Assembly (NCBI RefSeq): GCF_019175385.1
Contig: NC_083338.1
Location: 88,309,777-88,373,776 of the forward strand
Length of the DNA stretch: 64,000 nucleotides
From: Lycium barbarum
Lineage: Eukaryota > Streptophyta > Magnoliopsida > Solanales > Solanaceae
Reading direction: 5' to 3'
Shown here in pieces: positions 4,437 through 55,363 of the stretch. The notes below the pieces were generated by a model. That model saw only the letters and a list, made by a program, of their open reading frames with translations, was not told the DNA's origin and did no database searches. Every line of letters begins with the position of its first letter. The stretch's first letter is position 1. The position numbers were made by a program, and so were the translations under genes.

Positions 4437-4534
4437 CCGAGTTAAATTCTCGGATTTGTTGTTGATGATATAGCCGAGTTGGATTCTCGGGGATGGTACT
4501 ATTTACAGGGGAAATGCTGCCGAAATTTCTGTAG
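4437..4534 (+). promoter_or_regulatory. Putative LTR core promoter / transcription start region of W
   Basis: Two small stem-loops with CCGAG and CTCGG arms (about 4437-4455 and 4473-4490) precede tatttacaggggaaatgctg (from about 4499) and ccgaaatttctgtag. The same order recurs at 11420-11520 in the other W LTR, at 46991-47050 and 53440-53504 in U, at 37087-37185 in V's 3' LTR and, inverted, at 13427-13520 in S. Shorter versions are in R, Z and X. The conservation is seen directly; the promoter role is inferred from position and the TATA-like bases before it. Confidence 0.45.
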
Positions 4535-5329: not shown

Positions 5330-5815
5330 TGTCGTTCACTGAGCCCGGGCCAGGATATGTTATCGTGCGTATTCCTCTGCATTGTTCACCGAGTCCCTCG
5401 TTAGAGGGCCGGGTATGGTATATGTATATGATGATATGATTATGGTACCGAGTCCCATAATGGGCCGGGTACGGTATATGTGCACATGATTTCATTTATC
5501 GAGTCCCTTAATGGGCCGGGTACGGTATGCTTCATTCACCAAGTCACTCACTAGAGGGCCGGGTACGGTATGTATATGTATATGTATATGTATATGCATG
5601 ATGACATGATGGCATACTGATATGACTTCACTTACCGAGTCCCTCACTAGAGGGCCGGGTACGGTATATATATGATATATGATGTTGACATGCATGACTC
5701 TATTCACCGAGTCCCTCACTAGAGGGCCGGGTATGGTATATGTATACATGTATTCATGATGACATAATGACATGGTTTCATTCACCGAGTCCCATAATGG
5801 GCCGGGTACGGTATG
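5330..5815 (+). repeat. Array of hairpin-forming repeats in W's 5' LTR
   Basis: About eight units of the form accgagtCCC...GGGccgggtacggt occur, spaced 40-95 bp apart by ATATG-rich DNA. The inner arms change together: CCCTC pairs with GAGGG in the units near 5395, 5640 and 5712, and CCCAT pairs with ATGGG near 5450 and 5790. The outer TACCG and CGGTA can also pair. The unit near 5331 and the one near 5540 are degenerate. An inverted version is in S at 12333-12735. Confidence 0.75.
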
Positions 5816-5942
5816 TGCTATGAAAATGTTTGATTCTGTTCCGTACTGCACAGGTACAGTGGTTTCTTTATTGTGATATTTGACTCCCGGAATCTCTATT
5901 TCAGTTATGATATTTCCAGTTGTATTCTATGCCTTACATACT

Positions 5943-5979
5943 CAGTACATATTCCGTACTGATCCCCTTTCTTCGGGGG
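5943..5979 (+). other. Back-to-back hairpins near the 3' part of W's LTR
   Basis: CAGTAC-N7-GTACTG is followed at once by CCCC-N7-GGGG. The same pair is kept in V (31859-31894 and its 3' LTR near 38410-38445) and, inverted, in S near 12170-12215. U keeps the second hairpin (48434-48450). This could be part of the R region or of 3' end formation. The role is inferred. Confidence 0.5.
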
Positions 5980-6528
5980 CTGCGTTTCATGCAAGCAGGT
6001 ACAGACGCGCACGTGAGTGGTCCGTCAGCTTAGGACATCCATTCTGCTGTGTTGAAGTGATCCCTCGTTCCGGAGCCCATACCTTTGGTACAGATCTTTC
6101 TGTTGTACATGTTTATGTATATATGACTATTTAGGGGTACGGCGGGGCCCTGTCCCGTCATATGGTTATGTTATGTTTGTTAGAGGCCTGTAGACATGTA
6201 TGTGGGTCATGGGTCGTTGTGGTTCAGATATGTCTGTGTGGCTTGCGTCTAAGCGGTTCCATTTGCTATGATAGCCTTAACGACTTGTACGTATGTATAC
6301 ATATATATATATGTTTTGGATGATATGTTCCACGACAGCCTTGGTGGCTTCTGTATGATATGTATGTTACAGGTGACCGCTTAAGACGATATCTGTTCTC
6401 AGTATCTATATAAATTGATATATGTTGGATATGGATAAGTTATGGATATGTCGATTTGGTAAGTAGGCGTGTATAGGTGTCCAGCTCGGGCACTAGTCAC
6501 GGCCCACGGGGTTGGGTCGTGACAAAAG

Positions 6529-6540
6529 TGGTATCAGAGC
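6529..6540 (+). promoter_or_regulatory. Primer binding site of W (initiator tRNA-Met)
   Basis: TGGTATCAGAGC lies four bases after the LTR end. It is complementary to the 3' end of plant initiator tRNA-Met and primes minus-strand DNA synthesis. The same site is found in V, U, X, Y and T. Confidence 0.9.
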
Positions 6541-6621: not shown

Positions 6622-6812
6622 AGGCTACAGGACATTTAGGATGTTACCCTTCCTTCTTATCTTAAATTGTGCGATAGAGCTGTAATATTAGGATGGTTCC
6701 CTTCCAATGAATTGCTGTGTCTACAGCGAGGCTCCAAAAAGAGCGATAGTGTCAGTATTTTGGGAAATTGTTTCTGATCCTCTTCCTGCAGGTGTTTGTA
6801 GGTTGACGAAAG

Positions 6813-7364
6813 ATGAAGAGGACAACTTCTGATAGTGGGGGTGCTAAGAAGGCCCCTAGGATATCGCCAGGACCGAGTAAGAGGAGCCTTAGCTATTTGA
6901 TGGAGACTGATCCTTCGGAGGACCCAGCAACAATTCCTCCAGAGTTTTTGACCCCCAGGAAAGAGGACACTGCGGAGGGCAGTTGCGATACAAATCCCTC
7001 GGAGGACCCGGCGATGATACCTCCAGAGCTTCTTACCCCTAGGGAGGAGGATAGTTATGATACAGATCTATCAGAGTATTCTTCTGGGACACCGGAGGAG
7101 GAGATTTCTGGGGCCATGCCAGCTGCTCCTGTGGTGGAGCACTATGTTAGACAGGCCTCCCCAGTGAGTGTTACGGACTACTCCAGTCCCTTGTCCTGGC
7201 CGTCAGTAAACCAGGAATTGCCTATTTATCTATACTCCTCCGATTCAGATGCGAGCAATGAGGGGAGTCAGACGAGCGGATGGCAGACAGACGATGATGG
7301 GGAGCACACTTCACAGGGCAGCTTCCCAGATCAGACCCGAGACCGATCGGCTACAGGTATATGA
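6813..7364 (+). CDS. Acidic proline-rich protein of unknown function (183 aa)
   Basis: I do not recognise this family. The start is ATG at 6813, about 275 bases after the primer site, where gag normally begins; U has the homologous ATG at 49215. Residues 1-31 are basic and Ser/Pro-rich (GGAKKAPRISPGPS). Residues 32-83 hold two copies of a 24-28 residue repeat with core PSEDPATIPPEFLTPR. A third partial copy follows. Residues near 110-145 are the best-conserved part (VVEHYVRQAS then SSPLSWPSVNQELP). The tail is Asp/Ser/Gly-rich. No zinc knuckle, protease motif, membrane segment or signal peptide is visible. Differences from the U homologue are mostly synonymous in the conserved part, so it was probably translated. 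It may be a remodelled Gag N-terminus or a new accessory protein. Confidence 0.65.
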   Translation: MKRTTSDSGGAKKAPRISPGPSKRSLSYLMETDPSEDPATIPPEFLTPRKEDTAEGSCDTNPSEDPAMIPPELLTPREEDSYDTDLSEYSSGTPEEEISGAMPAAPVVEHYVRQASPVSVTDYSSPLSWPSVNQELPIYLYSSDSDASNEGSQTSGWQTDDDGEHTSQGSFPDQTRDRSATGI

Positions 7365-7700
7365 GTTTTCTTGGAATTTTCTATGTATGCGTAACTTCTG
7401 TAGAGTATCATTTGATGACGGCAAATGGAAATCAAAAGGGCCGATGACCCAGTGGTTATAAGTAACGACGACTAAGATGTCTCTGCCACCAGTGGGAATC
7501 TAGGAACCCCGGATGAAAGGTAATCATATGTACAGATGGAAGTGAGTATTGAGGATTTAAAAGGGCAACACGGTAATTGTATGATCGGAAAAGTAAAGGA
7601 TCGTCTCTATATCGGGGTGGGACCCGCTACGAGAACCTTTTGGAAGTTGTTAGGACCCCGACTTGTCTTAGATTACGTGATAAAGGTCGTACGGGGAAGT
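7365..7700 (+). other. W internal region between the ORF and the 5S-derived segment
   Basis: No convincing gene is present. The stretch aligns with U at about 49740-50534 and in part with V at about 33000-33221. Shared patches include 'gggtgggacccgctacgag' and a tract ending in 'aaaggtcgt-cgggg'. The 84-codon frame at 7536-7790 runs through the 5S-like segment and is not kept in U or V, so I do not treat it as a gene. Confidence 0.5.
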
Positions 7701-7802
7701 GGATATAATTATACCAGCATTCAAGCATCGAAATGCATTAAAGCTCCGAGGTTAAGCTTGCTAGGGCCAGAGCAACTTTGGGATGGGTGACCCCTGGGAG
7801 GT
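7701..7802 (+). other. 5S rRNA-derived segment in W
   Basis: The first ~20 bases (ggatataattataccagca) match the start of plant 5S rRNA. After a diverged middle, GTTAAGC-TGCT (A box) and GGATGGGTGACC (C box) are clear, ending at the CTGGGAAGT position of 5S. It aligns with equivalent segments in V (33222-33324) and U (50535-50638). They share changes absent from 5S genes (GAGGTTAAG for GCAGTTAAG, and GAGCAA). The 3' end of 5S is missing, so it is not a functional 5S gene. Identity was judged against the plant 5S sequence from memory. Confidence 0.8.
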
Positions 7803-9834
7803 ATACTAAAAATCTCACAAATGTAGATATAAGAGACAAATGGGAATTTGGGGTAACCTAAAGGAAATTAGAGTATGTGGAGTGGTTAGAAACCTTAAAG
7901 AGGTCGCGTAGGCTAAGGCAGACCAGATATGTGGAGAGAAGAAAGCACAACACAGCTCTGGAATCAGAGTAAGTTCGAATAGCGTTTGGAAGTATTTTGT
8001 AAGCGAAATGGTAGTAAACATATATGTATGCATATGACATCTCATTTATGACTGTATCGATCGATAGGTGAATCCTAGCAACCAGTGTTGCGATGTATAG
8101 AAGACACTAACTGAGCGAAATTCAAGAGACAAAGCGAAGGGTATGGTATAGATGCTATGAAATAAACTGATATTGATTTCACTACAAGTAAGATTGGAAA
8201 ATTCTAACACCACGATATTTGGAAAAGGGAGAGAGCGAGTAAATAAAAGGTAAGGAGATCAAAATGTCAGAAAAAATAGAATGAAAGGTAAGGAACGGGC
8301 ATGAAGGAAAGGATAACTTGGCCGAATCTTCCATTGTGGAAGGATATAATTACTAAAGGATAATTACGTAGCTATATTGGTATAGTTGTTTTGAACATAG
8401 GGAAGCCTTTCTGGAGGGTGACTTAAGAATGGAACCGATTCGCACGAATAAAAGTAATATCTTATGAACTTCAGAGCCGATGCTACAAACAATAAGAGAA
8501 GAAAGCTACTCCCCAAGAAAGAGATTAAAGCTACTGATGGCTTAATTGAAGGAAAAAGAGAGTGGTTGGAAATGGATATGCACCAAAAGGTTAATGACAT
8601 TGTTAGACATAAAGGACAGAGGTATGTCAGGGGGTAAGTGTCAGAAATGGATGCCCTTATGAGTATTCCGATTAAATACGAAAACGTAGTTAACAAGGAG
8701 ATAGACAGGACAGACTCCGCGATGAAGGAACTTCAATTATAAGAAGATCGCGGAAATCGATAATTACTTAAAGGGCATAGGCGTATATAGACCCTCTTAA
8801 TAAAGGGGGGGGGGGGGAGAACATACTAGACCTAAAATGAACTATGACAATTCAAGCCCCAGAAAAGGATACTTATTAGCTCGGGGCCAGAGTTCGGGGT
8901 ATGTTGGCGTGTCGTAAAGGTTATGAAATGACGAAGTAATAAATCGACAACGAATGTGCTATGAGATAGGTATAGGGAGAAAATATGGAAGACACGTGGA
9001 GAGGATGCTTTATGCTGACACGAGCCACGATATTACTTGATCATGGTTTTAATTCCTCGTACTGAGCAGAACTTGCGTAGTACCTAGATATGTAAAGGTG
9101 TGTCCAAAAGGGTAATAAAGAGAGTAAGAAAGGTATACAAGCTAAATCCACAAGGTCAATGAAGAGGATAACAAGTCCAAGGGACGCCTCGGATGACAAC
9201 TGTTATAATGAAGTAACCACGGTTAGTAGTTAACAACTTCTCGAAGAAAGGAATCATGCTACTCATATGAATAAAAGGTAAAAGAGGCCACCGGGTATTA
9301 GAAGATAGTTCATGGACCATTAATCATACTGAACCTGAGGGTATACGCTATGGAATTGTGAGAATAATTAACATGAAGCCATGCCCAATTATGATGATAA
9401 GGAGTCCACACCGAAGAGCTAACCAGGAATAACGATTGATGGAACGACCATTAATCCAAGGAAGTTACAGACAGGTATACTGGCACTAAGGGATGTGAAG
9501 GGAAGGAGATAAGGAAAAAGTTGCGGCAAGAACCCAAAAATGTTGCGAGTTAAGAAATTAACTGAATTCGAATCATGAGTTGTAATGAGTATAGTTGGAC
9601 TGCGAAGGACTAGAAATGGCAAAGCAATATCATGTATATACATTTTGGATACTAATAAACTGGCCTTGGAAAGGAACATAACTATTATGCTCGTTAGCGA
9701 CGAAGTCATGATTGGATAAACACTTAGAATGTAAAATTAAGAGGGAAAGCTCAATTTGAGATATAGTAGGCTTTATCAAATTGTCTGTAAGATTGGTAAG
9801 TCACCCATGAATCAGAGATATCACCGAATTAGAA
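7803..9834 (+). other. W internal region without recognisable gene
   Basis: AG-rich DNA that aligns in pieces with V (33325-35500), for example around 'aatagcgtttggaagtattt' and 'cttatgaacttcagagccga'. A 13-base G run at 8805-8817, preceded by AATAAA, has a counterpart of 17 G in V at 34883. Open frames are short and not conserved. Confidence 0.5.
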
Positions 9835-10238: not shown

Positions 10239-11780
10239 TGTTATATCCCGCATTTTTGCACATGCGGATAATTCAAGATGACTGTGGGAAGTTAAGAGCA
10301 AGGTTATAGCTTGATCTTGTTTAGCACACAAGTTGTTTATGAGAGTTATGGATGTGGAAATATTAAGAGTGGCTAGGGGTAAAAAGGAAAATTCGCAAGG
10401 TGACTCATAGAAATATGGAGGAAGGCTAAGGGCAAATTGGGAATTTGGAAAATAAATTTTCATGAATTGCAAAATATAAAAAGAAGAAAAAAAAAGAGGT
10501 TGGGCTTAAGTAAAAAGGCCAAGTGGCCGTCCACCTTAATGGGCCAAGGCCCATGTTGGAGTTTAATATATGTAAAGAAAGATGACAATTCATCTTCAAC
10601 AAAAAGAAAGTTCAAGAAACTTTGAGAGAAAAGAAAAGGGGCCTATTCGGCCAAGGAGAAAATTTTTGGAGCCTTCAACTTTGATCCAAAAAATTTATTT
10701 CTTCTAGTATTCCTACTAATTCAAGGGTCCTCTTCAACGTGGCATAATTGTTAGAGCAAGAAGACTTCTCTTTGTTGCAAGTTTATAATCATAGCCAAGT
10801 GAGAAGTTAAGGAGAAAAGGTAAGAATCAATCTTCTTTTATATGTTATGGATGGTTGTGTAGGTTGTAGTATGTAGAAATGGGTGAAATTCATGAAAATA
10901 TGGATTATGTGTTGTGGCCGTGTGGTTGTGGTATGGTATGGAAAAGAATGAATCAATTTTTCTTAAGTATTTTGGTTGTTGTTATAAGGGAATCCATGAT
11001 GGAAATGAAAGTTTAATGATTCTAGTGAAGTTGTAAGTGTTGGAGAGTTGTTTTAGAAGCTAATGTGATTTTAATGTCACTTTTTGTATTTATGGAAGGT
11101 AATGTTGTTAATGTGTGAATTGTTAGTATAATTCATGAATTTGAAAGGAAGAAATGTGTTGTTGTTGTTCTTGTTGAATTTGAAAGGTTTCGGATGGTAT
11201 GTTGGTTTGGCCGTTTGCAATGTAAGGCGGATTGTCGAAGTGTTCTTGAATATTGTTTGAATGGTTTCGGATTAATACTTGAATATGTGAGCAATTACGA
11301 ATTGAACGTAAATGGAAAGTCGTCAAAGTTTGTAGAAAGAAATTGTTGATGTTAGTATGTGTCTTGAATTGATTGTTGATATTGTTAGAATGATTGTTGA
11401 TATTGTTGTTGATTATTTGGCCGAGTTAAATTCTCGGATTTGTTGTTGATGATATAGCCGAGTTGGATTCTCGGGGATGGTAGTATTTACAGGGGAAATG
11501 CTGCCGAAATTTCTTTAGACAAAGTGTTAGTTAAGGGTGAGATTTTTGGATATCTATGGCTAATGTTTGGTATGTATGAATGTTGTTGTAGATCTTGCGA
11601 AGCCAAAGACTTAAGTTCGGATTAGCGTAGAAAGAGGACAAGATATGTAAGGCTTACATTTTCTTTCTTTGGCATGATCTTTATGAAACGAGCAAATGAC
11701 GTATATATATGATCTCCAAGAAATTCCTATTCTTAGAGCCATTGGGATGGCTAATATCCTTGACTTCCATAAGTTATTTC
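10239..11780 (+). repeat. 3' LTR of W, truncated (1542 of about 3270 bp)
   Basis: It follows the 5' LTR closely from TGTTATATCCCGC to '...gacttccataag' and then stops where S starts at 11781. The hairpin array and the LTR terminus are therefore missing from this copy. Confidence 0.9.
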
Positions 11781-26976: not shown

Positions 26977-26977
26977 A

Positions 26978-29502: not shown

Positions 29503-32318
29503 TGTTATAGCCCGTATTTTGTACGTTTGGATATTTCAAAGTCGTCGTGGAAAATTAAGGGCAAGACCATTTTAAAAAATTATTTTAATGTACAAGTTGT
29601 TATGAATATTAGTGATGACTATTATTAGTATGGAAATATTGAGAAAGGCTAAGGGCAAAAAGAGAAATTCGCAAAATGGCCCATGGTAATATTGTGGAAG
29701 ACTAGGGGCAAAACGAGAATTTCACAAGTATTCAAGAAAATTCTTGAATGGACCAAAGTTTATATAACAAGACAAATGGTCATATTTATTTATTTTAAGA
29801 AATTTCTAGAGAGAGGGCATGTGCCCCTCACATTCTTATGGGAACTATATATATATATATATGAATAAGTGGAAGAAAAATCTAGATAATTCATCTTTCC
29901 CCACAACTTAAGAGAAAAGAAAAGAAAGAAGGAGAAACGGGGGGTATTCGGCCAAGCCATGGCCGAACCTAGCCCATGGGAATTGGTCACAAGAAAATTA
30001 TTTTGTTCTAGCTTTTCCACCAATTGGAAGGTCCTCTACGACGTGGTATAGTTGTTGGAGCAAGCAAACCATTTCTTTGGTGTTGTCCTAGCACTAGCCG
30101 AAAGTTGAAGGGCCAAGTGGAAGAGGTAAGGTTCAATCTTCTTTTACATATGTTGTGGATGATTTATGCATGTTAGAGTGTGTGTAAATGAATGAAATTC
30201 ATGAAAGAATGATGTTGAAGTTGTGGCCGAATGTATATAGTGTTGGCCGTGGAAGTGTTGTGTTGTGTAGAAAGAATGGATTAATTTTACTTAGTATTTA
30301 AATTGTTGTTGTAATGTATAGGAATAGATGAAAAATTCATGAAAATATGTATGTTGTTGTTGTGGCCGAATAAGGGGTTGTTTTGGTAAGTTATCATGAA
30401 TGGATTCTATTTGACATTTTAGTAGTAGTCGATGCAGATTCTATGATGAAAATGATTGTTTGGTAATTCGAAAGAAAGTTGTCGACGTGTAGGTTGTTGA
30501 TCTAGTTCATGAATTTGAAAGTAAGGAATGTATTATTGATGTTTTTGTTTAATTAAGAATGGTTGCGGAGTGTGTTGTGATAATGGGTTGGAACCTAAAT
30601 GAAATGCCGTTCAATTATGTAAAACAAGCTATTAATGTTAGAATGCATTTTGAGTAAAGTGTTGAAGATTGGAGATATGATTGTTGGCATTGTTATTGAT
30701 ATTTTGGCCGAGTTCCATTCTCGGGTTTGGATTAGCGTAAGAAGCGAATAAGGTATGTAAAGCTCTACCTTTCTTTCTTTTGGCATGTCTTAATCATAAT
30801 AGGCTATGATACGAGTCTCAGGAAAAACTCTATTCCTAAAAATCCGAGCATGATTATGACCCTTATTCATTTCAATGGAATTGAATTATAGACTTTATGT
30901 TTTATTATGCTTTGACGGAAAAAATGGCTTAGACACTTTTACTCCTAAAAGAGTCATGCGTCGTAAAACATCCGTAACTTTCACAAACGGAACCGGATTG
31001 CCTTGAAACTTTCGTAGACGACTTCATAAGGCCTAATGTTCGTACTTTATGTACGCCACCTCGACTTAACCCGAGGTGGGCCCACAATTCCCGAAACCTT
31101 CTTGTATTGTTCTATTTGACCTATTTTCGTACAATAATTAAAAGAAACCTTTGGTTATTGTTCCGACTACTAAACGATAGTTGTTTTAACTATTCCATTG
31201 AATCCTATGATATATTTTGATATGAACAAACGATCTCAGAAGTTTTTCTTTGACATAATCCGTCGTAACATCCGAAAGGTACGTACTATGACTATCGTCT
31301 GATTTCTTTTCTAAATGACCTATCGTTCAGACTATTCTATCGAGTCTTTCTAAATATTTTACGATGCATATAGTTTCTCACTACTCTATTCGTGGATGCC
31401 TCAATGCTTCCTTCACTGAGCCCAGGCCAGGATATGTTATCAAGCGTAATCCACTGCATTGTTCGCCGTGCCTCGATGTGAGGGGGCAGGTATAGCATGT
31501 ACATGGGTCTGGAGTATGATGTGCCATGTACATATATTCTGCTATTTGATGATATGATATGATATGTGCACATTTTGATATTTGATGATATGATATGATA
31601 TGGCCATCTGATATGTTATGATATGTTACGGAGCTATTCCCTACTCTGGAGTATGATGTGTTGTGGCGCCAGTGATGGGGTGACGACCACGTTCTGTTCA
31701 CCGAGTCCCATAATGGGGTCGGATACAACATATGTTCTGACATGCATTACCTATGTTTTATGGGTAAGCATTTTTTATACTCCGGTTATTGCACTTATTT
31801 TCTGTACCCCCTGTTCAAATTATGATTCTGTTTACTGTATCTCATGATTTACATACTTAGTACATATTCCGTACTGACCCCCTTTCTTCGGGGGCTGCGT
31901 TTCATGCCGCGCAGGTACACCCAGATGATGTGAAGTTATTATAGAGGATGTTCCAGCAGAGTTGGCAAGCTCCATTTTCTCCTGGAGTGCTGCCGAGTCA
32001 GAGTTTGTATGTTATGCTTTTTTCTGGATTGATGTTAGAGACTTTGCAGACAGAGTCGTGGGTATTGGTTGTCAGTTCTGTAAGCGGCCCCATCAGCCAA
32101 TGAGTCATTCTGTATTATGTAATCAATTCTATATGCTTACAGATTCTATTTGATTTGAGAATAGTAGAAATGATATTTCTGAGAGTATTACTATGTATTC
32201 TATTCTGTTTGATTTAAAAGTCTGAAAAGAATATGTATGTGATAAGAGTCAGAGGGTTCGCTCGGCCCTAGATAAGGGTCGGGTGCCCATCACACCCTAA
32301 TAAGGTTAGGGTGTGACA
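29503..32318 (+). repeat. 5' LTR of V (2816 bp, 173 bp deletion)
   Basis: Starts TGTTATAGCCCG, ends TTAGGGTGTGACA. Compared with the 3' LTR it lacks the segment equal to 37110-37282; the breakpoint near 30725 has GTTTG on both sides in the intact copy. A palindrome TTCGGCC...GGCCGAA lies at 29947-29967 and the double hairpin at 31859-31894. Confidence 0.9.
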
Positions 32319-32321
32319 AAT

Positions 32322-32333
32322 TGGTATCAGAGC
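32322..32333 (+). promoter_or_regulatory. Primer binding site of V
   Basis: TGGTATCAGAGC three bases after the LTR end at 32318. Confidence 0.9.
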
Positions 32334-32416: not shown

Positions 32417-33221
32417 AGGCTACGGGGCATCTAGGGATTGTTGACCTTCTTACTGTCTTAGATCGTGCGATAGAGCTATGTCATAGGAAAATGAAATTCC
32501 TTATATGAGCTTTACATACGACGGGAGAAGGTAAGGGATGACATGGAAAGTCATAAAAGTAAGTCTTGATGTATTTGTTCTGTTATCTGAAATTGGAAGT
32601 TCTGGATGGCTGGAATGTGTTATATAGCTGTATGCTCTGTAAGGTATTGTTGATATTTGTTGCGTACAGATTCTGAATAGTAAGGATGGTAAAGGTGACT
32701 CGGTCAAAATTTTCAAAATGTGGTCATTCAACTAGGTATACCTAACAGGAAGAAGCATGGAAAGGAAACATCGTAAATAGACGATGAGTGGGATGTGACA
32801 TTTTAGAGAAGCTACAGATTTGGGCACGACGTGAAGAACGATTGTAAGAAAGATGATTAACAGTCCGAAGGGTTAAAAGGGATAACATTTGAGGTTAGTA
32901 AGAACAAGGTCTGCTGGGTGATTCAAAGAAAGTTAACAATCAGTTTTGCTGTAGATTATTATGTACGGATGGCGAGAGGAAATCTGGACATACGGATACC
33001 TGAGTACTTATAAGTAATGGCGATGAAGGCGTGTTCCCTACCATCGGGAATTTGGAAGTCCAGGACAGGAAGTAGTCATACACACAGGCGGAAGGTGAAC
33101 ATTAGGAATCAAAAAGGGCAAAACAGTAATTGTAAAAGAAAGGATGTGTTACGAGAGTGTCTCGGGATCTGTAAGACCTCGACTCGCCCTAAATCATGTA
33201 ATAATGGTCATGCGAGGAAGC
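32417..33221 (+). other. V leader and internal region without gene
   Basis: The first ~60 bases after the hairpin ('aggaggctac-gg-catctagg', 'agatcgtgcgatagagct') align with W, U and X. The place where W and U have their ORF has unrelated, non-coding DNA. Short frames (for example 33017-33244) are not conserved. Confidence 0.5.
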
Positions 33222-33324
33222 GGACGCAATTATATCAGCACTAAGGCACTGTATTCCATCAAAATTTCGAGGTTAAGCGTGCTAAGGTGAGAGCAATTTC
33301 AGGATGGGTGACCGCCTGGGAAGT
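33222..33324 (+). other. 5S rRNA-derived segment in V, best preserved
   Basis: Aligns without gaps to the first ~103 bases of plant 5S rRNA, at about four of five positions against the sequence as I remember it. Most differences are C-to-T or G-to-A. The start (ggacgcaattatatcagcac), A box (GTTAAGCGTGCT, 33272-33283), intermediate element (GAGA near 33289) and C box (GGATGGGTGACC, 33302-33313) are all visible. The final ~16 bases of 5S are absent and no T run follows, so it is not a 5S gene. Role may be TFIIIA or L5 binding, or none. Confidence 0.85.
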
Positions 33325-35802
33325 ATGCAAGAAATCCTAAAGATTTAGATATAAGAGGCAAATGAAAAGCTAGAATATCCTGAGTGAAATTAGAGTATAT
33401 GGAACGGTTAGAGACCCTAAAAGGCCACATAGCACGCGACAAGTTAGACTAGAGAGGAGACGGAAAGTACGTCACGGCTCTGGAACTTGGATAGGCTTGA
33501 ATAGCGTTTGGAAGTATTTTGTGGGCTAGTTGATAGTAATTATATATTTATGTATGAATGCGCATAATATCTCATATGTGATGATATCGATGGGCATGTG
33601 GTGTATGTCCTAGTATCCGGTGCTACGGCAAGGAATGCGTTGGTTGAGAAAGGTTATCGAAGTTTAAGTGACAGCAAAATAAATAGTATGAGTGTTACAA
33701 GGTAAGTTGATATCGCTTTCACTATAGGCTAGGACTAGAAAATTCTAATACAATAACACTTGGAAAAGGAAGAGAGTGAGTAAATGAAAGCCAAGGAGGT
33801 CAATTATCGAAAAGAAGTGAAAAGTAAGAAACATGATCAAGCGAAATCTCCAAAAGAAATGACGGGCAAGCACGGGACTATTTGGATAAAACTGCAGGCG
33901 TAGGTACGTGAAAAGGGCGAAGTGTGGTAACAACAGAGAAGTGTGTGAGGTTCAAAACCAATTTCAATAAGTGGGTCTGAAAGAACAGTGACCACGACAA
34001 GGAATGTGAATTAAGAAAAGGAATGATAAAGTTTTGCGATAATGTTAGGAGATTTAGACTCCCGAAAGGTATATAAGCAATAAATGTGCAGCTGCATTAA
34101 TATGATTGCCTCGGAAATGGAAGTGTTTTCCTGAAAGGGTAACTTAGAAACGAAACGGATTTAGAGTAAAAATTTCGCGAATTTTAGAGCCGATGCCACA
34201 AGTGGCAAAAGGAAGAAAAGTGTTCGAGGAGGAAGAAAACTAAGGAAAGTTAAGGATGAAAATAGAAAAGGTATACTAATGGGTTGATTGAAGGAAGAAT
34301 GGAATGTGTGAGAGCAAAATAATTAAAAACCTCTAGCCATAGAAGTAAGGGAGATGCCTTAACAAATTAGCAATAGAAACCCGATTACGCACCAAGGAAA
34401 GAATAAGGATAATGGGTCGACATCGTTGATGGGAAATTAGTGGTATGGAATGAGAATTCATGTGAGGTTTGAGTGATTCGGTCTTGAAGGAACTAGGATA
34501 AAATGTAAAGAATATGTATGGAAGACCGCTCGGTCATAGTGTCATAAGTATGGTTAAAGGCTCAATGAGCAAGGATAGAGAGAGTATAAATCGTAAGGAT
34601 TTTGGTGTTAAGAGAAAAAGTAGCAGGACGCTCAAGACAACATGGATGCACAACTGTGGCACTAATGCATAGTTAAGAAGACAAACAAGTATGTGAATTA
34701 AATGGGTGAAAGAGTATGGAAATATGGACCGAATGATGATATAGACAGAAAGTAAAAGAAAAATTTAGGGTAAGAAGTTCTGATCTGTTATGCACAGAAT
34801 CAGAAAGAAAGACGAGGAATGAGGTAATTATCGTGGATGAGGATACTCGGAGACTGTTGGTATATGAGGAACCCCTAATAAAGGGGGGGGGGGGGGGGGA
34901 GAGACCATATTATATTATACTTAGAACGAAATCACAACATCTTCAAGCGTTAAGAAAGGAAATCTATTAGCTCGAGGCCGGAGCTTAAATGTATCAGCAT
35001 ACCAAGAGAATACATGAAAGGAGTAGAAATGAATTGATAATGAGTGTGCCGAGAGGCCGACATAAAGGGAAAGAATGAAAGATACCTTAAGAAAATGCTT
35101 CTTGCCAACATGAATTATGACATGTTTATGTCATGATTTGAATCCCTCCTATCGGGAAAACTAGCGTCGTACCTAAGTACGCAGTAATATGTTTTAAAGA
35201 ATAGTAAAGAAAGAAAGAAAATGGCTACGAGCTAAGTTCATAAAGGACAACGGAGAAAATGATAAGATTCAAAGGATATTTCGGACAACAACGACTATTA
35301 TGACGAAAGTATCAACAATTGGTAATCCGGAAATTTTTGAAAGAAAGAAAGAACGCAGTGTCTATGACTGAAATGAAAGAGTTCATCGGATATAAGAAAA
35401 TAGCTCATGGACCATTAATTATACGGAACATGAAGATATACGCTATGAAATCATATGAACTATCGAGGCGAAGCAATGCGCGATCATATTTGTAGGCAAT
35501 CCACACCGGAGATCCAACAAGAAGTAATGAAGGATGGAATACGCGCCAATACAAAGAGATAAAAAACAAGTATACTTGTGTCGAGAAATGTGAGAGAAGG
35601 AAATAAAGAAAACGTTGTAGTAAGGACTCAAGATGTTACGAGCTAAGAAGTTAGGTGAATTCGGATCATAAGTCACCATAAGCTCGACTGGATTGTGAAG
35701 GATAATAATTGGCAAAGAAACGTTACGTACATATGTTTTGGGTAAATAATCGGAATGAAAGATTAAAAAGGGATAGGGACAAAGGCAAAAAGAAAAAGCC
35801 CT
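33325..35802 (+). other. V internal non-coding region
   Basis: AG-rich, aligning in patches with W 7803-10150. There is a 17-base G run at 34883-34899 after AATAAA (W: 8805). A 14-base C run sits at 35803-35816. No gene is supported; the antisense frame at 35443-35934 is chance. Confidence 0.5.
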
Positions 35803-35888: not shown

Positions 35889-38870
35889 TGTTATAGCCCG
35901 TATTTTGTACGTTTGGATATTTCAAAGTCGTCATGGAAAGTTAAGGGCAAGACCATTTTCAAAACTTATTTTAATGTACAAGTTGTTATGAATATTATTG
36001 ATGACTATTATTAGTATGGAAATATTGAGAAAGGCTAAGGGCAAAAAGAGAAATTCGCAAAATGGCTCATGGTAATATTGTGGAAGACTAGAGGCAAAAC
36101 GGGAATTTCACAAGCATTCAAGAAAATTCTTGAATGGACCAAAGTTTATATAACAAGACAAATGGTCATATTTATTTATTTTAAGAAATTTCTAGAGAGA
36201 GGGCATGTTCCCCTCACATGCTTATGGGAACTATATATATATGAATAAGTGGAAGAAAAATCTAGATAATTCATCTTTCCCCACAACTTAAGAGTAAAGA
36301 AAAGAAAGAAGGAGAAACGGGGGGTATTCGGCCAAGCCATGGCCGAACCTAGCCCATGGGAATTGGTCACAAGAAAATTATTTTGTTCTAGCTTTTCCAC
36401 CAATTGGAAGGTCCTCTACGACGTGGTATAGTTGTTGGAGCAAGCAAACCATTTCATTGGTGTTGTCCTAGCACTAGCCGAAAGTTGAAGGGCCAAGTGG
36501 AAGAAGTAAGGTTCAATCTTCTTTTACATATGTTGTGGTTGATTTATGCATGTTATAGTGTGTGGAAATGAATGAAATTCATGAAAGAATGATGTTGAAG
36601 TTGTGGCCGAATATATATAGTGTTGGTCGTGGAAGTGTTGTGTTGTGTAGAAAGAATGGATTAATTTTACTTAGTATTAAAATTGTTGTTGTAATGTATA
36701 GGAATAGATGAAAAATTCATGAAAATATGTATGTTGTTGTTGTGGCCGAATAAGGGGCTGTTTTGGTAAGTTATGATGAATGGACTTTATTTGACATTTT
36801 AGTAGTAGTCGATGCGGATTCTATGATGAAAATGATGGTTTGGTAATTTGAAAGAAAGTTGTCGACGTGTAGGTTGTTGATCTAGTTCATGAATTTGAAA
36901 GTAAGGAATGTATTATTGATGTTTTTGTTTAATTAAGAATGGTTGCGGAGTGTGTTGTGATAATGGGTTGGAACCTAAATGAAATGCCGTTGAATTATGT
37001 AAAACAAGTTATTAATGTTAGAATGCATTTTGAGTAAAGTGTTGAAGATTGGAGATATGATTGTTGGCATTGTTATTGATATTTTGGCCGAGTTCCATTC
37101 TCGGGTTTGTTGTTGATGATTTAGCCGAGTTAAACTCTCGGGGATGATGTATTTATAGGGGAGATGCTGCCCAAATTTCTGTAGAAAAGTGTTACTTTAA
37201 GATTTAACTCCTAAGGGCTTATGGTTAATGTTCAGTATTTGTGACCAATTGTAGATTTTGGGAAGTTTGGAACTTGAGTTTGGATTAGCGTAAGAAGCGA
37301 ATAAGGTATGTAAAGCTCTACTTTTCTTTCTTTTGGCATGTCTTAGTCATAATAGGCTATGATACGAGTCTCAGGAAAAACTCTATTCCTAAAAATCCGA
37401 GCATGATTATGACCCTTATTCATTTCAATGGAATTGAATTATGGACTTTATGTTTTAATATGCTTTGACGGAAAAAATGGCTTCGACACTTTTACTCCTA
37501 AAAGAGTCCTGCGTCGTAAAACATCTGTAACTTTCACAAATGGAACCGGATTGCCCTGAAACTTTCGTAGACGACTTCATAAGGCCTAATGTTCGTAATT
37601 TATGTACGCCACCTCGACTTGACCCGAGGTGGGCCCACAATTCCCGAAACCTTCTTGTATTATTCTATTTGACCTATTTCCGTACGATAATTAAAAGAAA
37701 CCTTTGGTTATTGTTTCGACTACTAAACGATAGTTGTTTTAACTATTCCATTGAATCCTATGATATATTTTGATATGTACAAACGATCTCAGATGTTTTT
37801 CTTTGACATAATCCGTCGTAACATCCGAAAGGTACGTACTATGACTATCGTCTGATTTCTTTTCTAAATGACCTATCGTTCGGACTATTCTATCGAGTCT
37901 TTCTAAATATTTTACGATGCATATAGTTTCTCACTACTCTACTCGTGGATGCCTCAATGCTTCCTTCACTGAGCCCGGGCCAGGATATGTTATCACGCGT
38001 AATCCACTGCATTGTTCGCCGTGCCTCGATGTGAGGGGGCAGGTATAGCATGTTCATGGGTCTGGAGTATGATGTGCCATGTACATATATTCTGATATTT
38101 GATGATATGATATGATATGTGCACATTCTGATATTTGATGATATGATATGATATGGCCATCTGATATGTTATGATATGTTACGGAGCTATTCCCTACTCT
38201 GGAGTATGATGTGTTGTGGCGCCAGTGATGGGGTGGCGACCACGTTCTGTTCACCGAGTCCCATAATGGGATCGGATACGGCATATGTTCTGACATGCAT
38301 TACCTATGTTTTATGAGTAAGCATTTTTTATACTCCGGTTATTGCACTTATTTTCTGTACCCCCTGTTCAAATTATGATTCTTTTTACTGTATCTCATGT
38401 TTTACATACTAAGTACATATTTCGTACTGACCCCCTTTCTTCGGGGGCTGCGTTTCATGCCGCGCAGGTACACCCAGATGATGTGAAGTTATTATAGAGG
38501 ATGTTCCAGCAGAGTTGGCAAGCTCCATTTGCTCCTGGAGTGCTGTCGAGTCAGAGTTTGTATGTTATGCTTTTTCTGGATTGATGTTAGAGACTTTGCA
38601 GACAGAGTCGTGGGTATTGGTTGTCAGTTCTGTAAGCGGCCCCATCAGCCGATGAGTCATTCTGTATTATGTAATCAATTCTATATGCTTACAGATTCTA
38701 TTTGATTTGAGAATAGTAGAAATGATATTTCTGAGAGTATTAATATGTATTCTATTCTGTTTGATTTAAAAGTCCGAAAAGAATATGTATGTGATAAGAG
38801 TCAGAGGGTTCGCTCGGTCCTAGATAAGGGTCGGGTGCCCATCACACCCTAATAAGGTTAGGGTGTGACA
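35889..38870 (+). repeat. 3' LTR of V (2982 bp)
   Basis: The complete version of V's LTR. It retains the CCGAG/CTCGG hairpins and the tttataggggagatgctgcc motif (about 37087-37185) missing in part from the 5' copy. It ends GGTTAGGGTGTGACA at 38870 before the target copy gtaag. Confidence 0.92.
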
Positions 38871-43891: not shown

Positions 43892-43899
43892 CTGAACTC

Positions 43900-45673: not shown

Positions 45674-48600
45674 TGTTACGTCCGACATTTTTGCTTATTT
45701 GAAAAATGCAAGATAAATTGGCTTGTAATGAATAAGGCCACATTTGGACCTTGCTTGATATGAATGGGTAGGTTATGAGTACGTTGGTGTGAAATTACGA
45801 AAGGAGGCCAAGGGCAAAAATCGGAATTTTAGAAACTTGTCCCATGAATTACAATAAATAGCCAAATTGGGCTCAACAAAGAAAAATAATAAAATGAGGC
45901 CCAAATGGGAAGGCCCAACCGGCCAAGCAAGGGTCCAAGCCCTTGGATTAATTAATTTCCATGTGGAATTATATAATCATATTTATCCTAAGAAGGTTCA
46001 AGAGAAACCAAGAACAAAACACAAGCAAAAAAGAGAGAGAGAGTTTCGGGTGGAAGAGGAAACAAAAGAAAAAGAAAAAAAAATTGGAGCCAAATCCTTG
46101 ATTCAAAAATCCAATTCTTGTGAAATTATTACCAAGTGCAAGACCTCTACAAGATGGTGTAAGTATTTTGGCAAGAAAGTGATTTTGTAGCAAGTGGAAA
46201 ACTTGAAGAAAAGGTGAGAAACAATTCATTTTCTTATGTTATTAAGTTTGGTTTATGTTGTAATATGTAGAATTGAGTAGAGTGTATGGAAATATGGAAG
46301 TTTGTAAAGTGGGTATGTTGTTTGAAAGTTGGTCGTGTGTATGCATGAATTGCATGTCCATAATGACTTGAATGTTTGTTGAAATCTAGTGTAGTTATGG
46401 TAGAAATTGTATTAGAAATTAAAGTGGAATGAATTAGTGAAAGTTGGAGAATATAGTATGTGGCCGTGTGGTGTGTGTGGATGATGGAGTGTGAATTTAA
46501 TCTTGTTAGTATGTTAAGTGTGTTATGGTGAAATGAATGGAAAGATAATAATCTTTATTGTCATGGAAAAATGGTTATTAAGTTGTTGTAGGAAAACATG
46601 CAACTTTGTTATGGTTTATGTAAAAATGGAAATGAAAGTATCAAGAGGCAAATTATGATTAATGTTGATGAATTTGGAAGATGGAAATGTAATATGAACT
46701 TGTAAGTTGAAGGTTAGGAGAATTGGATAAATTGTGGCTTTGATGGAAAGTTTGTATGTTTGTATATATTATGTATATCTTGTGAGAATGGTATGGTATG
46801 CCTCCGCATCGTGTTATAATGACCTTGATGGGTGATGAATATCAAAATAATAAGTTTGGTTTGGAAATGTAAGGTTGAAACGAAAGATGTTTCGTTATGC
46901 CGGAAAGATGGCTAGTGATGCCATATTGTGGGTTGTAATGCATGTTGTTGTTATTGATGTGGTTTCTGGGTTGTTGTGTTAATGAATTGAGCCGAGCTAA
47001 GTCTCGGGGTCGTCATATATACAGAGGAAATGCTGCCGAAATTTCGGTAGGCAAGTATGTGTTAAGTTGGACTATTGAAAAAGTTTGAAACTAACAATTG
47101 GTAAACTTGACCATTTCTAGATTTTGGACGAAATTGGAGTGGAAGCCAAGCGAGCGTAAGGCGCAATCGAGGTATGTAAAGCCTTCCCCTTTATTCTTAG
47201 GCATGTTCTGGATGTGATAGGCTCGACCGCGAGCCTTAAGTACGACTCCGTTCTTCGGAATTCGAGACGGAAAATCGCTCCAATTCCTTCAGTACAATTG
47301 AAACCATTTCCTTACAAATTGCCTTTAAAATGAACTTTTGTACGAAACTTCCCTAAACGGAGTCGGAATACTTCCAAATGATTATGGATGACCTCATAAG
47401 GTCTATTATCAGTAATTCACTTATGTCGCCTCGAGGTGGTCCGAGGCGGGCCCACAAGGCCCGATATCTTCTGCATAACCTTAATTACTCCGGTTTTGTC
47501 CGATTTTTTTCAGAAAACCTCTGGATTATTATTTTTATCATGATATGACTATTTTTATGCAAATCTTACAAAATGACCTCTGGACATCGAAGGATCTGAT
47601 TCTGATAATAATCTGTCGTGCCTTCCCAACTAGGATATAGGCGCGTATTATGCATACTATCTGGATACTCTGATTTGGCTCGCCGTTTGGCACCCTTCAG
47701 TCTGATTGAGTCTGTATGTATGTGGTTTCTCATTAATCTGTTCGTGGTTGTCTCAATGCATTCCTTCACTGCGTCCCGGGCCAGGTTCTGTTATCGTGCA
47801 CATTCCTCTGCATTGTTCACCGCATCCCTCGGCGTGCGGGCCGCAATCTGTTATATCTGTATGATTATGATATTATGATCTGTGTATGGGGATGGCGGCC
47901 AGGATGGCATATGATCTGATCTGATTCTGTCTGTCCACCGCGTCCCGTACAAAGAGGGTCGGGTTCTGTTACCGCGCCCCCAGACAGGGTCGGGATCTGT
48001 ATGTATGTATGCATGTGCCATCAGCATTTACATAAGCACATGCCCCGGTATGATTCTGTATGACTCTGTATGATTCTGTATGACTCTGTACTACTCTGCA
48101 TGCATAAATCTGTCTGGCATACTTCTGTCTGTCTGTCTGAATTACGACTATGTCTGTATGTCCGTATGGATTCTGATTCTGTACATCCGTATGGATTCTG
48201 ATTCTGTATGTCCGTATGGATTCTGATTCTGTCCGTCTGTCTGGACCATGATTCTGTCCGTCTGTCTGGACCATGAATTCTGTTTGTCTGTCTGGATTAT
48301 GACTCTGACCGGTACACTTTTGTCTGTCCGTTCGGCTTATGATTCTGCCTATTATATTTCTGTGTTGTTGGTCCAGATTATGATTATGTCTTTATGTTTC
48401 TGCTTTACATACTCGCTACATTTTTTGTACTGACCCCCGTTCTTCGGGGGCTGCGCTACATGCCCGCAGGTACAGACGCACCAGGTGATGCGCCGCCAGT
48501 GTAGGGTTCTGATTTTGCTGTTTTGAAGAGCTCCCTTGATCCGGAGCGTATACTTTTTGTATATATCTTCTGTCTTCTGTATACTCTGTATGTATGGAAA

Positions 48601-48928
48601 TTCTGGGTACGGCGGGGCCCTGTCCCGTCATATGATTCTGTATGTCTGTTAGAGGCCTGTAGATAGATATGTGGGTTACAGGTTTCATCCGTTTAGGTAA
48701 GTACGAACGATTTTGTGACTCCGTCTGTATGTTAGCCTCATCGGCTTGTCTGTAAATTTCTATATGTTCAGGTATGTATATGTTCGCGCGCGCCGCATCT
48801 GTATCGGCCTGATTCTGTACACATCTGTTTGGAAAAAAAAATCTGTATAGTACGAAATTCTGTTAAGTAGGTACGTATGGTTATCCAGTTAGGATACCAG
48901 TCGCGGCCCACGGGGTTGGGTCGTGACA
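45674..48928 (+). repeat. 5' LTR of U (3255 bp)
   Basis: Starts TGTTACGTCCGACATT, ends GGTTGGGTCGTGACA. It holds a GGCC-rich patch at 45903-45940, the hairpin and core motif at 46991-47050, degenerate hairpin units near 47815-47995, TCTGT-rich tandem repeats at 48045-48300 (about 22-25 bp units) and the CCCCC/GGGGG hairpin at 48434-48450. The 107-codon frame at 45867-46190 is not preserved in the other LTR. Confidence 0.92.
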
Positions 48929-48932: not shown

Positions 48933-48944
48933 TGGTATCAGAGC
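48933..48944 (+). promoter_or_regulatory. Primer binding site of U
   Basis: TGGTATCAGAGC, four bases after the LTR end at 48928. Confidence 0.9.
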
Positions 48945-49025: not shown

Positions 49026-49214
49026 AGGCTACAGGACATCTAGGATGTTACCCTTCTTTGGATTCTTAGATCGTGCGATAAAGCTGTACGATTAGGATTA
49101 TTCTCCCCTACGAACTGCTGTATCTACAGCGAGGCTCCAAAAGAGCAGAAGTGTCAGTATTTGGGGAAAATGTTTCTGACCCTCTTCCTGCAGGTGATTG
49201 TAGGTTGATAAAGA

Positions 49215-49733
49215 ATGAAGAGGAGTGCTTCTCATGATGGGGATGGGGGTGCTAAGAAGGCCCCTAGGATATCACCAGGACCAAGTAGGCAGATCCCCAG
49301 CTACTCGATTGAGACAGACCCTTCGGAGGATCCAGAGACAATTCCTCCAGAGTTTCTGATCCCCAGAGCAGAGGATCCCAGGGAAGATAGTTATGATACC
49401 GACCCCTCGGAGGAACCAGCGACGATACCTCCAGAGTTTCTTACCCCCAGGGAGGAGGATAGCCCCGATGCTGAGCCACAAGAGCATTCCTCTGGGACGC
49501 CGGAGGAGGAAGTTCCCGAGGACATGCCAGCAGCTCCTGTAGTGGAGCATTATGTTAGACAGGCTTCTCCGGAGAGTGTTACGCCCTACTCCAGTCCTTT
49601 GTCCTGGCCATCCGTGAACCAGGAATTGCCGGGCTACCTATACTCCTCCGATTCAGATGCAGGTAATAGCGGGGGCCAGGCGAGTGGGGGTCAGACGGAT
49701 GATGATGATGATGAGGGATTGATCCGAGATTGA
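49215..49733 (+). CDS. Acidic proline-rich protein of unknown function (172 aa), homologue of W ORF
   Basis: Unknown family. It starts ATGAAGAGG like W's ORF, 271 bases after the primer site. Layout is the same: basic N-terminus (GGAKKAPRISPGPS); two repeats, PSEDPETIPPEFLIPR and PSEEPATIPPEFLTPR; conserved centre VVEHYVRQAS with SSPLSWPSVNQELP; and a tail ending in a run of five Asp. Indels against W are multiples of three. In the 31-codon centre, ten codons differ silently and two change the residue, which suggests past selection on the protein. It occupies the gag position. No catalytic motif is visible. Confidence 0.7.
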   Translation: MKRSASHDGDGGAKKAPRISPGPSRQIPSYSIETDPSEDPETIPPEFLIPRAEDPREDSYDTDPSEEPATIPPEFLTPREEDSPDAEPQEHSSGTPEEEVPEDMPAAPVVEHYVRQASPESVTPYSSPLSWPSVNQELPGYLYSSDSDAGNSGGQASGGQTDDDDDEGLIRD

Positions 49734-50534: not shown

Positions 50535-50638
50535 CGACGAAATTATATTAGCCCTAACACGTCAAAATGCATGAAAGTTTCGAGGTTAAGCGTGCTAAGG
50601 CCAGGGCAATTCTGGGATGGGTGACCCCCCTGGGAAGT
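50535..50638 (+). other. 5S rRNA-derived segment in U
   Basis: The 5' half has diverged, but GGTTAAGCGTGCTAAGG and GGATGGGTGACC plus CTGGGAAGT are clear and in 5S spacing. The diagnostic GAGGTTAAG and AGGGCAA changes are shared with V and W. A T5 run at 50648-50652 follows about ten bases later, which could end Pol III transcription; W and V lack it. Confidence 0.75.
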
Positions 50639-52122: not shown

Positions 52123-55100
52123 TGTTACGTCCGACATTTTTTCTTATTTGAAAAATGCAAGATAAATTGGCTTGTAATGAATAAGGCCACATTTGGACCT
52201 TGCTTGATATGAATGGGTAGGTTATGAGTACGTTGGTGTGAAATTACGAAATGAGGCCAAGGGCAAAAATCAGAATTTTGGAAACTTGTCCCATGAATTA
52301 CAATAAATAACCAAATTGGGCTCAACAAAGAAAAATAATAAAATGAGGCCCAAATGGGAAGGCCCAACCGGCCAAGCAAGGGTCCAAGCCCTTGGATTAA
52401 TTAATTTCCATGTGGAATTATATAATCATATTTATCCTAAGAAGGTTCAAGAGAAACCAAGAACAAAACACAAGCAAAAAAGAGAGAGAGAGTTTCGGGT
52501 GGAAGAGGAAAGAAAAGAAAAAGAAAGAAAAAATTTTTTGGAGCCAAATCCTTGATTCAAAAATCCAATTCTTGTGAAATTATTACCAAGTGCAAGACCT
52601 CTACAAGATGGTGTAAGTATTTTGGCAAGAAAGTGATTTTGTAGCAAGTGGAAAACTTGAAGAAAAGGTGAGAAACAATTCATTTTCTTATGTTATTAAG
52701 TTTGGTTTATGTTGTAATATGTAGAATTGAGTAGAGTGTATGGAAATATGGAAGTTTGTAAAGTGGGTATGTTGTTTGAAAGTTGGCCGTGTGTATGCAT
52801 GAATTGCATGTCCATAATGACTTGAATTTTTGTTGAAATCTAGTGTAGTTATAGTAGAAATTGTATTAGAAATGAAAGTGGAATGAATTAGTGAAAGTTG
52901 GAGAATATAGTATGTGGCTGTGTGGTGTGTGTGGATGATGGAGTGTGAATTTAATCTTGTTAGTATGTTAAGTGTGTTATGGTGAAATGAATGGAAAGAT
53001 AATAATCTTTATTGTCATGGAAAAATGGTTATTAAGTTGTTGTAGGAAAACATGCAACTTTGTTATGGTTTATGTAAAAATGGAAATGAAAGTATCAAGA
53101 GGCAAATTATGATTAATGTTATTGAATTTGGAAGATGGAAATGTAATATGAACTTGTAAGTTGAAGGTTAGGAGAATTGGATAAATTGTGGCTTTGATGG
53201 AAAGTTTGTATGTTTGTATATCTTATGTATATCTTGTGAGAATGGTATGGTATGCCTCCGCATCGTGTTATAATGACCTTGATGGGTGATGAATATCAAA
53301 ATAATAAGTTTTGTTTGGAAATGTAAGGTTGAAACGAAAGATGTTTCGTTATGCCGGAAAGATGGCTAGTGATGCCATATTGTGGGTTGTAATGCATGTT
53401 GTTGTTATTGATGTGGTTTCTGGGTTGTTGTGTTAATGAATTGAGTCGAGCTAAGTCTCGGGGTCGTCATATATACAGAGGAAATGCTGCCAAAATTTCA
53501 GTAGGCAAGTATGTGTTAAGTTGGACTATTGAAAAAGTTTGAAACTAACAATTGGTAAACTTGACCATTTCTAGATTTTGGACGAAATCGGAGTGGAAGC
53601 CAAGCGAGCGTAAGGCGCAATCGAGGTATGTAAAGCCTTCCCCTTTATTCTTAGGCATGTTCTGGATGTGATAGGCTCGGCCGCGAGCCTTAAGTACGAC
53701 TCCATTCCTCGGAATTCGAGACGGAAAACCGCTCCAATTCCTTCAGTACAATTGAAACCATTTCCTTACAAATTGCCTTTAAAGTGAACTTTTGTACGAA
53801 ACTTCCCTAAACGAAGTCGGAATACTTCCAAATGATTATGGATGACCTCATAAGGTCTATTATCAGTAATTCACTTATGTCGCCTCGAGTTGGTCCGAGG
53901 CGGGCCCACAAGGCCCGATATCTTCTGCATAACCTTAATTACTCCGGTTTTGTCCGATTTTTTTTCAGAAAACCTCTGGATTATTATTTTGATCATGATA
54001 TGACTATTTTTATGCAAATCTTACAAAATGACCTCTGGACATCGAAGGATCTGATTCTGATAATAATCTGTCGTGTCTTCCCAAGCAGGATATAGGCGCG
54101 TATTATGCATACTATCTGGATACTCTGATTTGGCTCGCCGTTTGGCACCCTTCAGTCTGATTGAGTCTGTATGTATGTGGTTTCTCATTAATCTATTCGT
54201 GGCTGTCTCAATGCATTCCTTCACTGCGTCCCGGGCCACGTTCTGTTATCGTGCACATTCCTCTGCATTGTTCACCGCGTCCCTCAGCGTGCGGGCCGGG
54301 ATCTGTTATATCTGTATGATTATGATATTATGATCTGTGTATGGGGATGGCGGCTAGGATGGCATATGATCTGATCTGATTCTGTCTGTCCACCGCGTCC
54401 CGTACAAAGAGGGCCGGGTTCTGTTACCGCGCCCCCAGACAGGGCCGGGATCTGTATGTATGTATGCATGTGCCATCAGCATTTACATAAGCACATGCCT
54501 CGGTATGATTCTGTATGACTCTGTACTACTCTGCATGCATAAATCTGTCTGCCATACTTCTGTCTGTCCGTCTGAATTACGACTATGTCTGTATGTCCGT
54601 ATGGATTCTGATTCTGTACGTCCGTATGGATTCTGATTCTGTATGTCCGTATGGATTCTGATTCTGTCCGTCTGTCTGGACCATGATTCTGTCCGTCTGT
54701 CTGGACCATGAATTATGTCTGTCTGTCTGGATTATGACTCTGACCGGTACACTTCCGTCTGTCCGTTCGGCTTATGATTCTGCCTATTATATTTCTGTGC
54801 TGTTGGTCCAGATTATGCTTATGTCTTTATGTTTCTGCTTTACATACTCGGTACATTTTTTGTACTGACCCCCGTTTTTCGGGGGCTGCGCTACATGCCC
54901 GCAGGTACAGACGCACCAGGTGATGCACCGCCAGTGTAGGGTTCTGATTTTGCTGTTTTGAAGAGCTCCCTTGATCCGGAGCGTATACTTTTTGTATATA
55001 TCTTCTGTCTTCTGTGTACTCTGTATGTATGGAAATTCTGGGTACAGCGGGGCCCTGTCCCGTCATATGATTCTGTATGTCTGTTAGAGGCCTGTAGATA

Positions 55101-55363
55101 GATATGTGGGTTACAGGTTTCATCCGTTTAGGTAAGTACGAACGATTTTGTGACTCCGTCTGTATGTTAGCCTCATCGGCTTGTCTGTAAATTTCTGTAT
55201 GTTCAGGTATGTATATGTTCGCGCGCGCCGCATATGTATCGGCCTGATTCTGTACACATCTGTTTGGAAAAAAAAATTTGTATGGTACGAAATTCTGTTA
55301 AGTAGGTACGTATGGGTATCCAGTTAGGATACCAGTCGCGGCCCACGGGGTTGGGTCGTGACA
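52123..55363 (+). repeat. 3' LTR of U (3241 bp)
   Basis: Near copy of 45674-48928; small indels account for the 14 bp difference, for example one fewer TCTGTATGA unit near 54515. The core motif at 53468-53504 has two changes (ccaaaatttcagtag). Confidence 0.92.

Follow-up and report, generated by a model that had tools for sequence, protein, structure and literature searches.

Why does part of a 5S rRNA gene lie in the middle of long-LTR retrotransposons, and does it do anything there? The question is raised by a window of 64,000 nucleotides of the Lycium barbarum genome (contig NC_083338.1, positions 88,309,777 to 88,373,776 of the forward strand), by which we mean the whole stretch of DNA analysed, where three elements, here called U, V and W, each carry a segment resembling 5S rRNA. 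They belong to a family of L. barbarum retrotransposons with a partial 5S rRNA gene mid-body. In all three the segment, hereafter the module, lies in the sense orientation of the element, at the positions that the original prediction had correctly assigned to it:

33222..33324, plus strand: 5S-derived module of V (5S bases 1-103), 38.9 bits against RF00001, 82/103 identical to genomic 5S
7701..7802, plus strand: 5S-derived module of W, 28.6 bits against RF00001 (below gathering), 76/103 identical to genomic 5S
50535..50638, plus strand: 5S-derived module of U, 21.6 bits against RF00001 (below gathering), 73/103 identical to genomic 5S

The covariance search proposed as a check gave a divided answer, as V exceeds the RF00001 gathering score of 38 bits whereas W and U fall under it, with E-values over the whole Rfam library of 0.092 and 6.5 respectively, and for U Rfam is consequently no proof by itself. 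The homology is established by local alignment to the 5S gene of this genome: V, W and U score 122, 95 and 83, while the top score reached by 50 shuffled 5S sequences over the full window and both strands is 37, a level that no local alignment to 5S exceeds in the rest of the window. The 5S origin claimed for the three segments is thereby confirmed. The aligned range covers 5S bases 1-103 in V and W and 8-103 in U, whose pairwise identity of 73/103 becomes 68/103 within the multiple alignment. The alignment of V is gapless, as had been reported, while W has one deletion, inside the C box, and U one insertion; changes relative to 5S that are common to all three are found at positions 7, 10, 34, 41, 50, 63, 73, 75 and 77. 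These modules are not functional 5S genes, which have a complete 119-nt fold including helix I, given that the similarity ends at base 103 and that the V module falls far below the 115.3 bits of a real 5S gene. Among the 47 best 5S matches of the genome is an array at C6:25569395-25587533, with a spacing of ~392 bp and a switch of orientation near 25.584 Mb, and at another locus (L001, on C11) 5S units lie 253 bp apart together with truncated units.

The architecture of the three elements is as follows:

29503..32318, plus strand: 5' LTR of V
32322..32333, plus strand: PBS of V, TGGTATCAGAGC
35889..38870, plus strand: 3' LTR of V, with TSD GTAAG at 29498-29502 and 38871-38875
45674..48928, plus strand: 5' LTR of U
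48933..48944, plus strand: PBS of U, TGGTATCAGAGC
52123..55363, plus strand: 3' LTR of U, with TSD AATCG at 45669-45673 and 55364-55368
3257..6524, plus strand: 5' LTR of W
6529..6540, plus strand: PBS of W, TGGTATCAGAGC
10239..11780, plus strand: 3' LTR of W, truncated at 11780
6807..7364, plus strand: 185-aa stop-to-stop ORF of W, upstream of the module, no Pfam match
49212..49733, plus strand: 173-aa ORF of U, related to the W ORF, no Pfam match

U and V possess the LTRs, exact 5-bp TSD, PBS and PPT of a Ty3/gypsy LTR retrotransposon, as does a related element from elsewhere in the genome, L073 (TSD AAATC), while the TSD of W is not visible because its 3' end is truncated. In U, V and W the PBS begins 3-4 nt past the 5' LTR and the PPT is G-rich; no upstream ORF of the 173-185-codon size is present in V. 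The elements are long (U 9.7 kb, V 9.4 kb, L073 8.4 kb), with LTRs of about 2.6-3.3 kb. U, V, W and L073 all have the module between PBS and PPT, outside the LTRs, and in two further loci (L040 and L041) it lies between PBS and 3' LTR, in agreement with the internal location first proposed for it. Spacing from PBS to 5S is 900 nt in V, 1172 in W and 1602 in U. Divergence within LTR pairs is low (K80 0.012-0.025, U being measured one base inside the LTR starts), which at an assumed rate of 1.3e-8 gives an age below 1 My. A perfect inverted repeat, AACATTCG-AGGA-CGAATGTT, stands immediately before the PPT in U (52087-52106), V and W. Outside the U and V elements the window also contains a related pair of stretches, 24220-27129 and 42752-45667, which are 65.7% alike and the first of which has minus-strand ORFs of 206 and 241 aa; a hammerhead-like Rfam match at 28118-28206 (25.7 bits, gathering 52) was rejected, as by eye it lacks the full core.

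The obvious comparison is with Cassandra, whose LTRs hold 5S sequence in their middle and whose published dataset spans 563-968 bp, according to the available part of that account (PMC10853983). Cassandra is described in the excerpt of a second source as having the PBS TGGTATCAGAGC and an A box RGTTAAGYRHGY and C box RRRATRGGTRACY that lie 15-25 nt apart (PMC7215508), and in that of a third as being transcribed by Pol III from the 5S of the 5' LTR to that of the 3' LTR, so that Pol III makes the replicating RNA, with Pol III processivity as the presumed limit on element length (PMC10886601). As far as these excerpts go, the elements studied here resemble Cassandra in being LTR elements with the iMet-type PBS, conserved A and C boxes and variable sequence between the boxes (PMC10853983; PMC7215508). 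However, Cassandra carries 5S in both LTRs of an element below 1 kb, whereas here a single internal copy is found in elements of about 8.4-9.7 kb, some with gag; neither the TRIM size (compare U, V and L073) nor the absence of coding sequence (gag is present in a further relative, L074) applies; and where the PBS of Cassandra follows the 5S by 5-200 nt, that of U, V, W and L073 precedes the module, at a distance of 900-1602 nt. Of the four features tested, three set the arrangement apart from Cassandra, and its separation from LTR-borne 5S, as originally proposed, therefore holds. Other mobile elements offer partial parallels in the portion of the literature available to us (PMC10886601): Ajax, a nemertean TRIM of the TRIMp3 class, likewise has only the promoter part of 5S and no functional rRNA, but bears it in the LTR of an animal element of 421-434 bp rather than internally in a plant element, and SINE3 elements, which are 5S-headed SINEs, share a 5S-derived Pol III promoter, but are non-LTR elements in which Pol III makes the replication template, unlike the module here. 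In Cassandra, Ajax and Helenus alike the small-RNA piece is in the LTR, and among the titles and abstract openings listed by searches of the open full-text literature none describes an internal-region 5S module in an LTR retrotransposon, although body texts and subscription journals may differ.

What the module has come to occupy is visible in relatives that retain gag. L073 is a full element consisting of 5' LTR, PBS, a 292-codon frame, the 5S-bearing block, an integrase SH3 remnant (SH3_Tf2-1, 6e-18), PPT and 3' LTR, in which the 292-codon frame corresponds to the later part of gag, a zinc knuckle (E 0.002) and the start of protease (E 0.007), both of the latter below Pfam cut-offs. In L074 a 438-codon gag frame (PF03732, 1e-15) precedes the block, and an exact-motif search found no PBS; gag frames that appear similar by eye are present in L048, L052 and L053. 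The block, of about 0.8-1.1 kb, is shared with the window:

7518..8288, plus strand: stretch of W, module included, that aligns at ~80% to the 5S block of gag-bearing L073 and L074

From the start of protease to the integrase remnant L073 spans ~1.1 kb, which is too short for RT, and the block consequently occupies the place of the rest of protease, RT, RNase H and most of integrase. L073 and L074, the two elements examined at length, thus combine a gypsy-type gag and an integrase remnant with an absence of RT that is judged from the L073 spacing, and no autonomous copy was found among the relatives examined. The best explanation is that the host elements are a non-autonomous plant Ty3/gypsy lineage that has lost most of pol; going by its 3' coding remnant, as no RT is present for placement, we take this lineage to be probably of the Tekay-type chromoviruses. 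Long LTRs and the lack of pol recall LARD and TR-GAG elements, non-autonomous LTR retrotransposons that have long LTRs and no pol, some of them retaining gag only; among the titles and abstract openings listed, none describes such an element with a 5S module.

We searched 1.67 Gb of the host genome (164 contigs) in two ways. A DNA search with V as query, in which 40 of 5476 candidate places were scored, yielded 30 loci (the V-type set) with at least 89.9% identity to the query over its length. A pattern for the junction (9 upstream bases, one of them free, followed by 5S 1-23, with at most 3 mismatches) was found at 34 places, against 0 for the reversed control; 20 of the 34 became loci, which with V, W and U make 23 rows, or 19 after removal of 4 near-duplicates. 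The 20 loci fall in several divergent groups, all with 5S bases 1-103 and alignable flanks, the exceptions being L046, which has lost its upstream flank, and L048, L052 and L053, whose far downstream end differs. Pairwise identity among the 19 distinct rows ranges from 0.58 to 0.96, and the best 5S match among the copies is L060 (92/103). In a tree of these rows the V-type copies are set off by one branch (100/100), while W and U group with the gag-bearing rows (100/98), U on a long branch. One capture followed by descent, as first suggested from changes shared by the three modules, would be the simplest account, and the identical 5S start junction and alignable flanks across the groups seen bear it out. 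In L046 (C7:80870518) the module lies only 243 nt past the PBS and the upstream frame encodes short peptide repeats. V-type modules at C11:67372765, 67378443 and 67384447, spaced ~5.7-6.0 kb apart and 96-97% alike over 800 nt, probably constitute an array of LTR-internal units in tandem, an arrangement also described for Cassandra.

If the modules descend from one capture, are all parts of them equally free to change? The limits of the boxes follow the motifs published for Cassandra, as given in the available part of the source (PMC7215508), and in V the relevant features are:

33271..33282, plus strand: A box of V (5S 50-61), fits the published Cassandra box motif
33301..33313, plus strand: C box of V (5S 80-92), fits the published Cassandra box motif
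33160..33522, plus strand: conserved block around the V module, from alignments, with its end close to a T4 run (this T4, at +296, is lineage-specific)

A first diversity profile was discarded as biased, its copies having been ranked on the same 241 nt, and the junction-pattern set was used instead; membership of this set depended on the junction and 5S 1-23 alone, which leaves 5S 25-103 and the downstream flank unaffected by the choice. Over the 19 copies, diversity is 0.240 across 5S 25-49, 0.026 in the A box, 0.252 across 62-79, 0.084 in the C box and 0.121 across 93-103 (a low value that the boxes do not explain), with 0.261 and 0.304 downstream and 0.279 upstream. The comparison of boxes with flanks over many copies that the original prediction had proposed thus finds the boxes less diverse (0.056 for both together, 0.268 elsewhere), and with CpG sites (CpG in any copy) removed the values are 0.044 and 0.243, a contrast reached in 0 of 10,000 permutations. 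As treating sites as exchangeable overstates certainty, the safer figure is the circular-shift count, in which 2 of 265 shifts are equally low, and the sampled copies represent few independent lineages. A blind 12-nt scan outside the selected stretch has its lowest window starting at 5S 49, followed by a non-overlapping one that starts at 82. The third lowest non-overlapping window (0.096) corresponds to V 33352-33363 (+131 to +142 from the 5S start), around ATAAGAGACAAATG.

The 30 V-type copies point in the same direction more weakly, with 0.036 in the boxes against 0.092 (4 of 240 shifts; permutation p 0.010), although the A box by itself falls short of significance here (p 0.11), and the intermediate element is not conserved (0.125). 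The boxes of 5S genes are also drawn more widely, with A at 50-64, IE at 67-72 and C at 80-97, and under these boundaries the V-type contrast is 0.054 against 0.093 (11 of 240 shifts; p 0.036), with none for the intermediate element alone. As for the earlier claim that A and C boxes are preserved, it stands for the copies taken together, which have low box diversity, but not for every single copy: judged by the published expression, 14 of the 23 diverse copies and 23 of the 30 V-type copies have an intact pair of motifs, V and U fit the pair while W fails in its A box, and one changed C box base is common to L044-L047. On these sequence comparisons, the boxes look as though they have been kept by selection on DNA sequence, with drift in the remainder of the block.

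The low box diversity might also be read without selection, if the 5S piece had hitchhiked in a captured block and had no role, its apparent conservation being due to chance, to few master copies or to shared ancestry. The youth of the LTR pairs (K80 0.012-0.025), the close kinship of the V-type copies and the damaged boxes of many copies would all suit such a passive relic; however, mean divergence of the 19 copies over the block is 26%, whereas the A box differs ~10x less than its neighbours, and the contrast is unchanged without CpG sites, and we regard this explanation as rather unlikely.

A second alternative concerns the source of the block, which could have been a Cassandra LTR or 5S SINE inserted in an ancestor and not a 5S gene directly, in which case its later role may likewise be that of a promoter or docking site. 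On either side the block has non-5S flanks, which differ from the genomic 5S spacer seen in L001, and, in the excerpts available, Cassandra has both a 5S in mid-LTR (PMC10853983) and the same PBS, TGGTATCAGAGC (PMC7215508). Nevertheless, exact C box and PBS patterns at 40-70 or 71-101 nt occur at 0 places in the host genome and no PBS is seen within the block, leaving such a source unlikely.

Constraint on the 5S segment could in principle act on RNA or on DNA: were an RNA fold the target, both strands of each helix should be kept, whereas free partner strands indicate constraint at the DNA level. Diversity in helix III is 0.362 on the 5' side against 0.129 (45-48) and 0.053 (51-52, within the A box) on the 3' side, and in helix V 0.318 on one strand against 0.101 on the other. 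V, W and U retain no more base pairs than random placement of the same changes would leave (fractions 0.257, 0.453 and 0.149), although the mean over 32 copies is 17.1 of 20 pairs against 16.1 for random placement, and shuffled versions of the block fold just as well (z = 0.17). By eye there seemed to be a conserved RNA hairpin ahead of the module, but folding gave it no support. Plant TFIIIA genes contain a 5S-like stretch outside a 5S gene, the P5SM exon, which is an RNA structure mimic; this exon sits in a host gene, whereas the constraint here is box-specific and on DNA, and the two are set apart on description. That the segment acts in genomic RNA as a 5S mimic to which L5 or TFIIIA protein binds, serving export, packaging or the control of translation, is very improbable, since the paired change C34-G41 to U-A in helix III of U, V and W and the slight excess of pairs kept over 32 copies are outweighed by unconstrained helix partners, the performance of pairs in V, W and U, the folding score and the absence of the 3' strand of helix I, and the binding of L5 that had been suggested is accordingly disfavoured.

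The pattern instead resembles an internal control region recognised at the DNA level, that is, a type 1 Pol III promoter and not an RNA mimic, and we lean, if only somewhat, towards a module that works as such a region within a block standing in place of the lost pol. The suggestion that it recruits TFIIIA or Pol III is favoured by the conservation pattern, low box diversity being the sole ground for a function that is still putative. TFIIIA would bind the C and A boxes of the module, TFIIIC and then TFIIIB would join it, and Pol III would begin transcription at the 5S start, making a short sense RNA. Such an RNA, starting mid-element, would be without the 5' LTR and PBS and could not serve as replication template, a role that must fall to the LTR-driven transcript, so any benefit to the element would be indirect: it may come via TFIIIC, as open or insulated chromatin, or from the short RNA, whether through an effect in cis or as a decoy.

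The fate of such a transcript is less favourable to the promoter reading. A T4 run at about +296 is found in V, in W and in 27 of the 30 V-type copies; however, it is missing from U, the gag-bearing loci, L050 and L057-L063, and a conserved Pol III terminator was consequently dropped as a feature of the family, no terminator common to all groups being found in the 20 loci aligned. Moreover, 11 of the 30 V-type copies and 7 of the 20 junction-pattern loci have T4 runs between their boxes, which would stop a transcript early and count against a productive one, and boxes intact in only some copies (14/23 and 23/30) argue against function in every copy.

More tentatively, these elements may be two-polymerase retrotransposons, in which a working type 1 promoter for Pol III, or else a docking site for TFIIIA/TFIIIC, is kept under selection in the space left by pol, and in which an output that is not a template, whether a short RNA or a chromatin state, helps the element to escape silencing. 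The 5S of a Cassandra LTR can start replicating RNA, yet here the boxes appear to have been kept although a start in mid-element cannot. Whether TFIIIA/TFIIIC docking alone benefits a retrotransposon is now a testable question, for which the modules would provide a dispersed set of natural 5S promoter variants with defined flanks.
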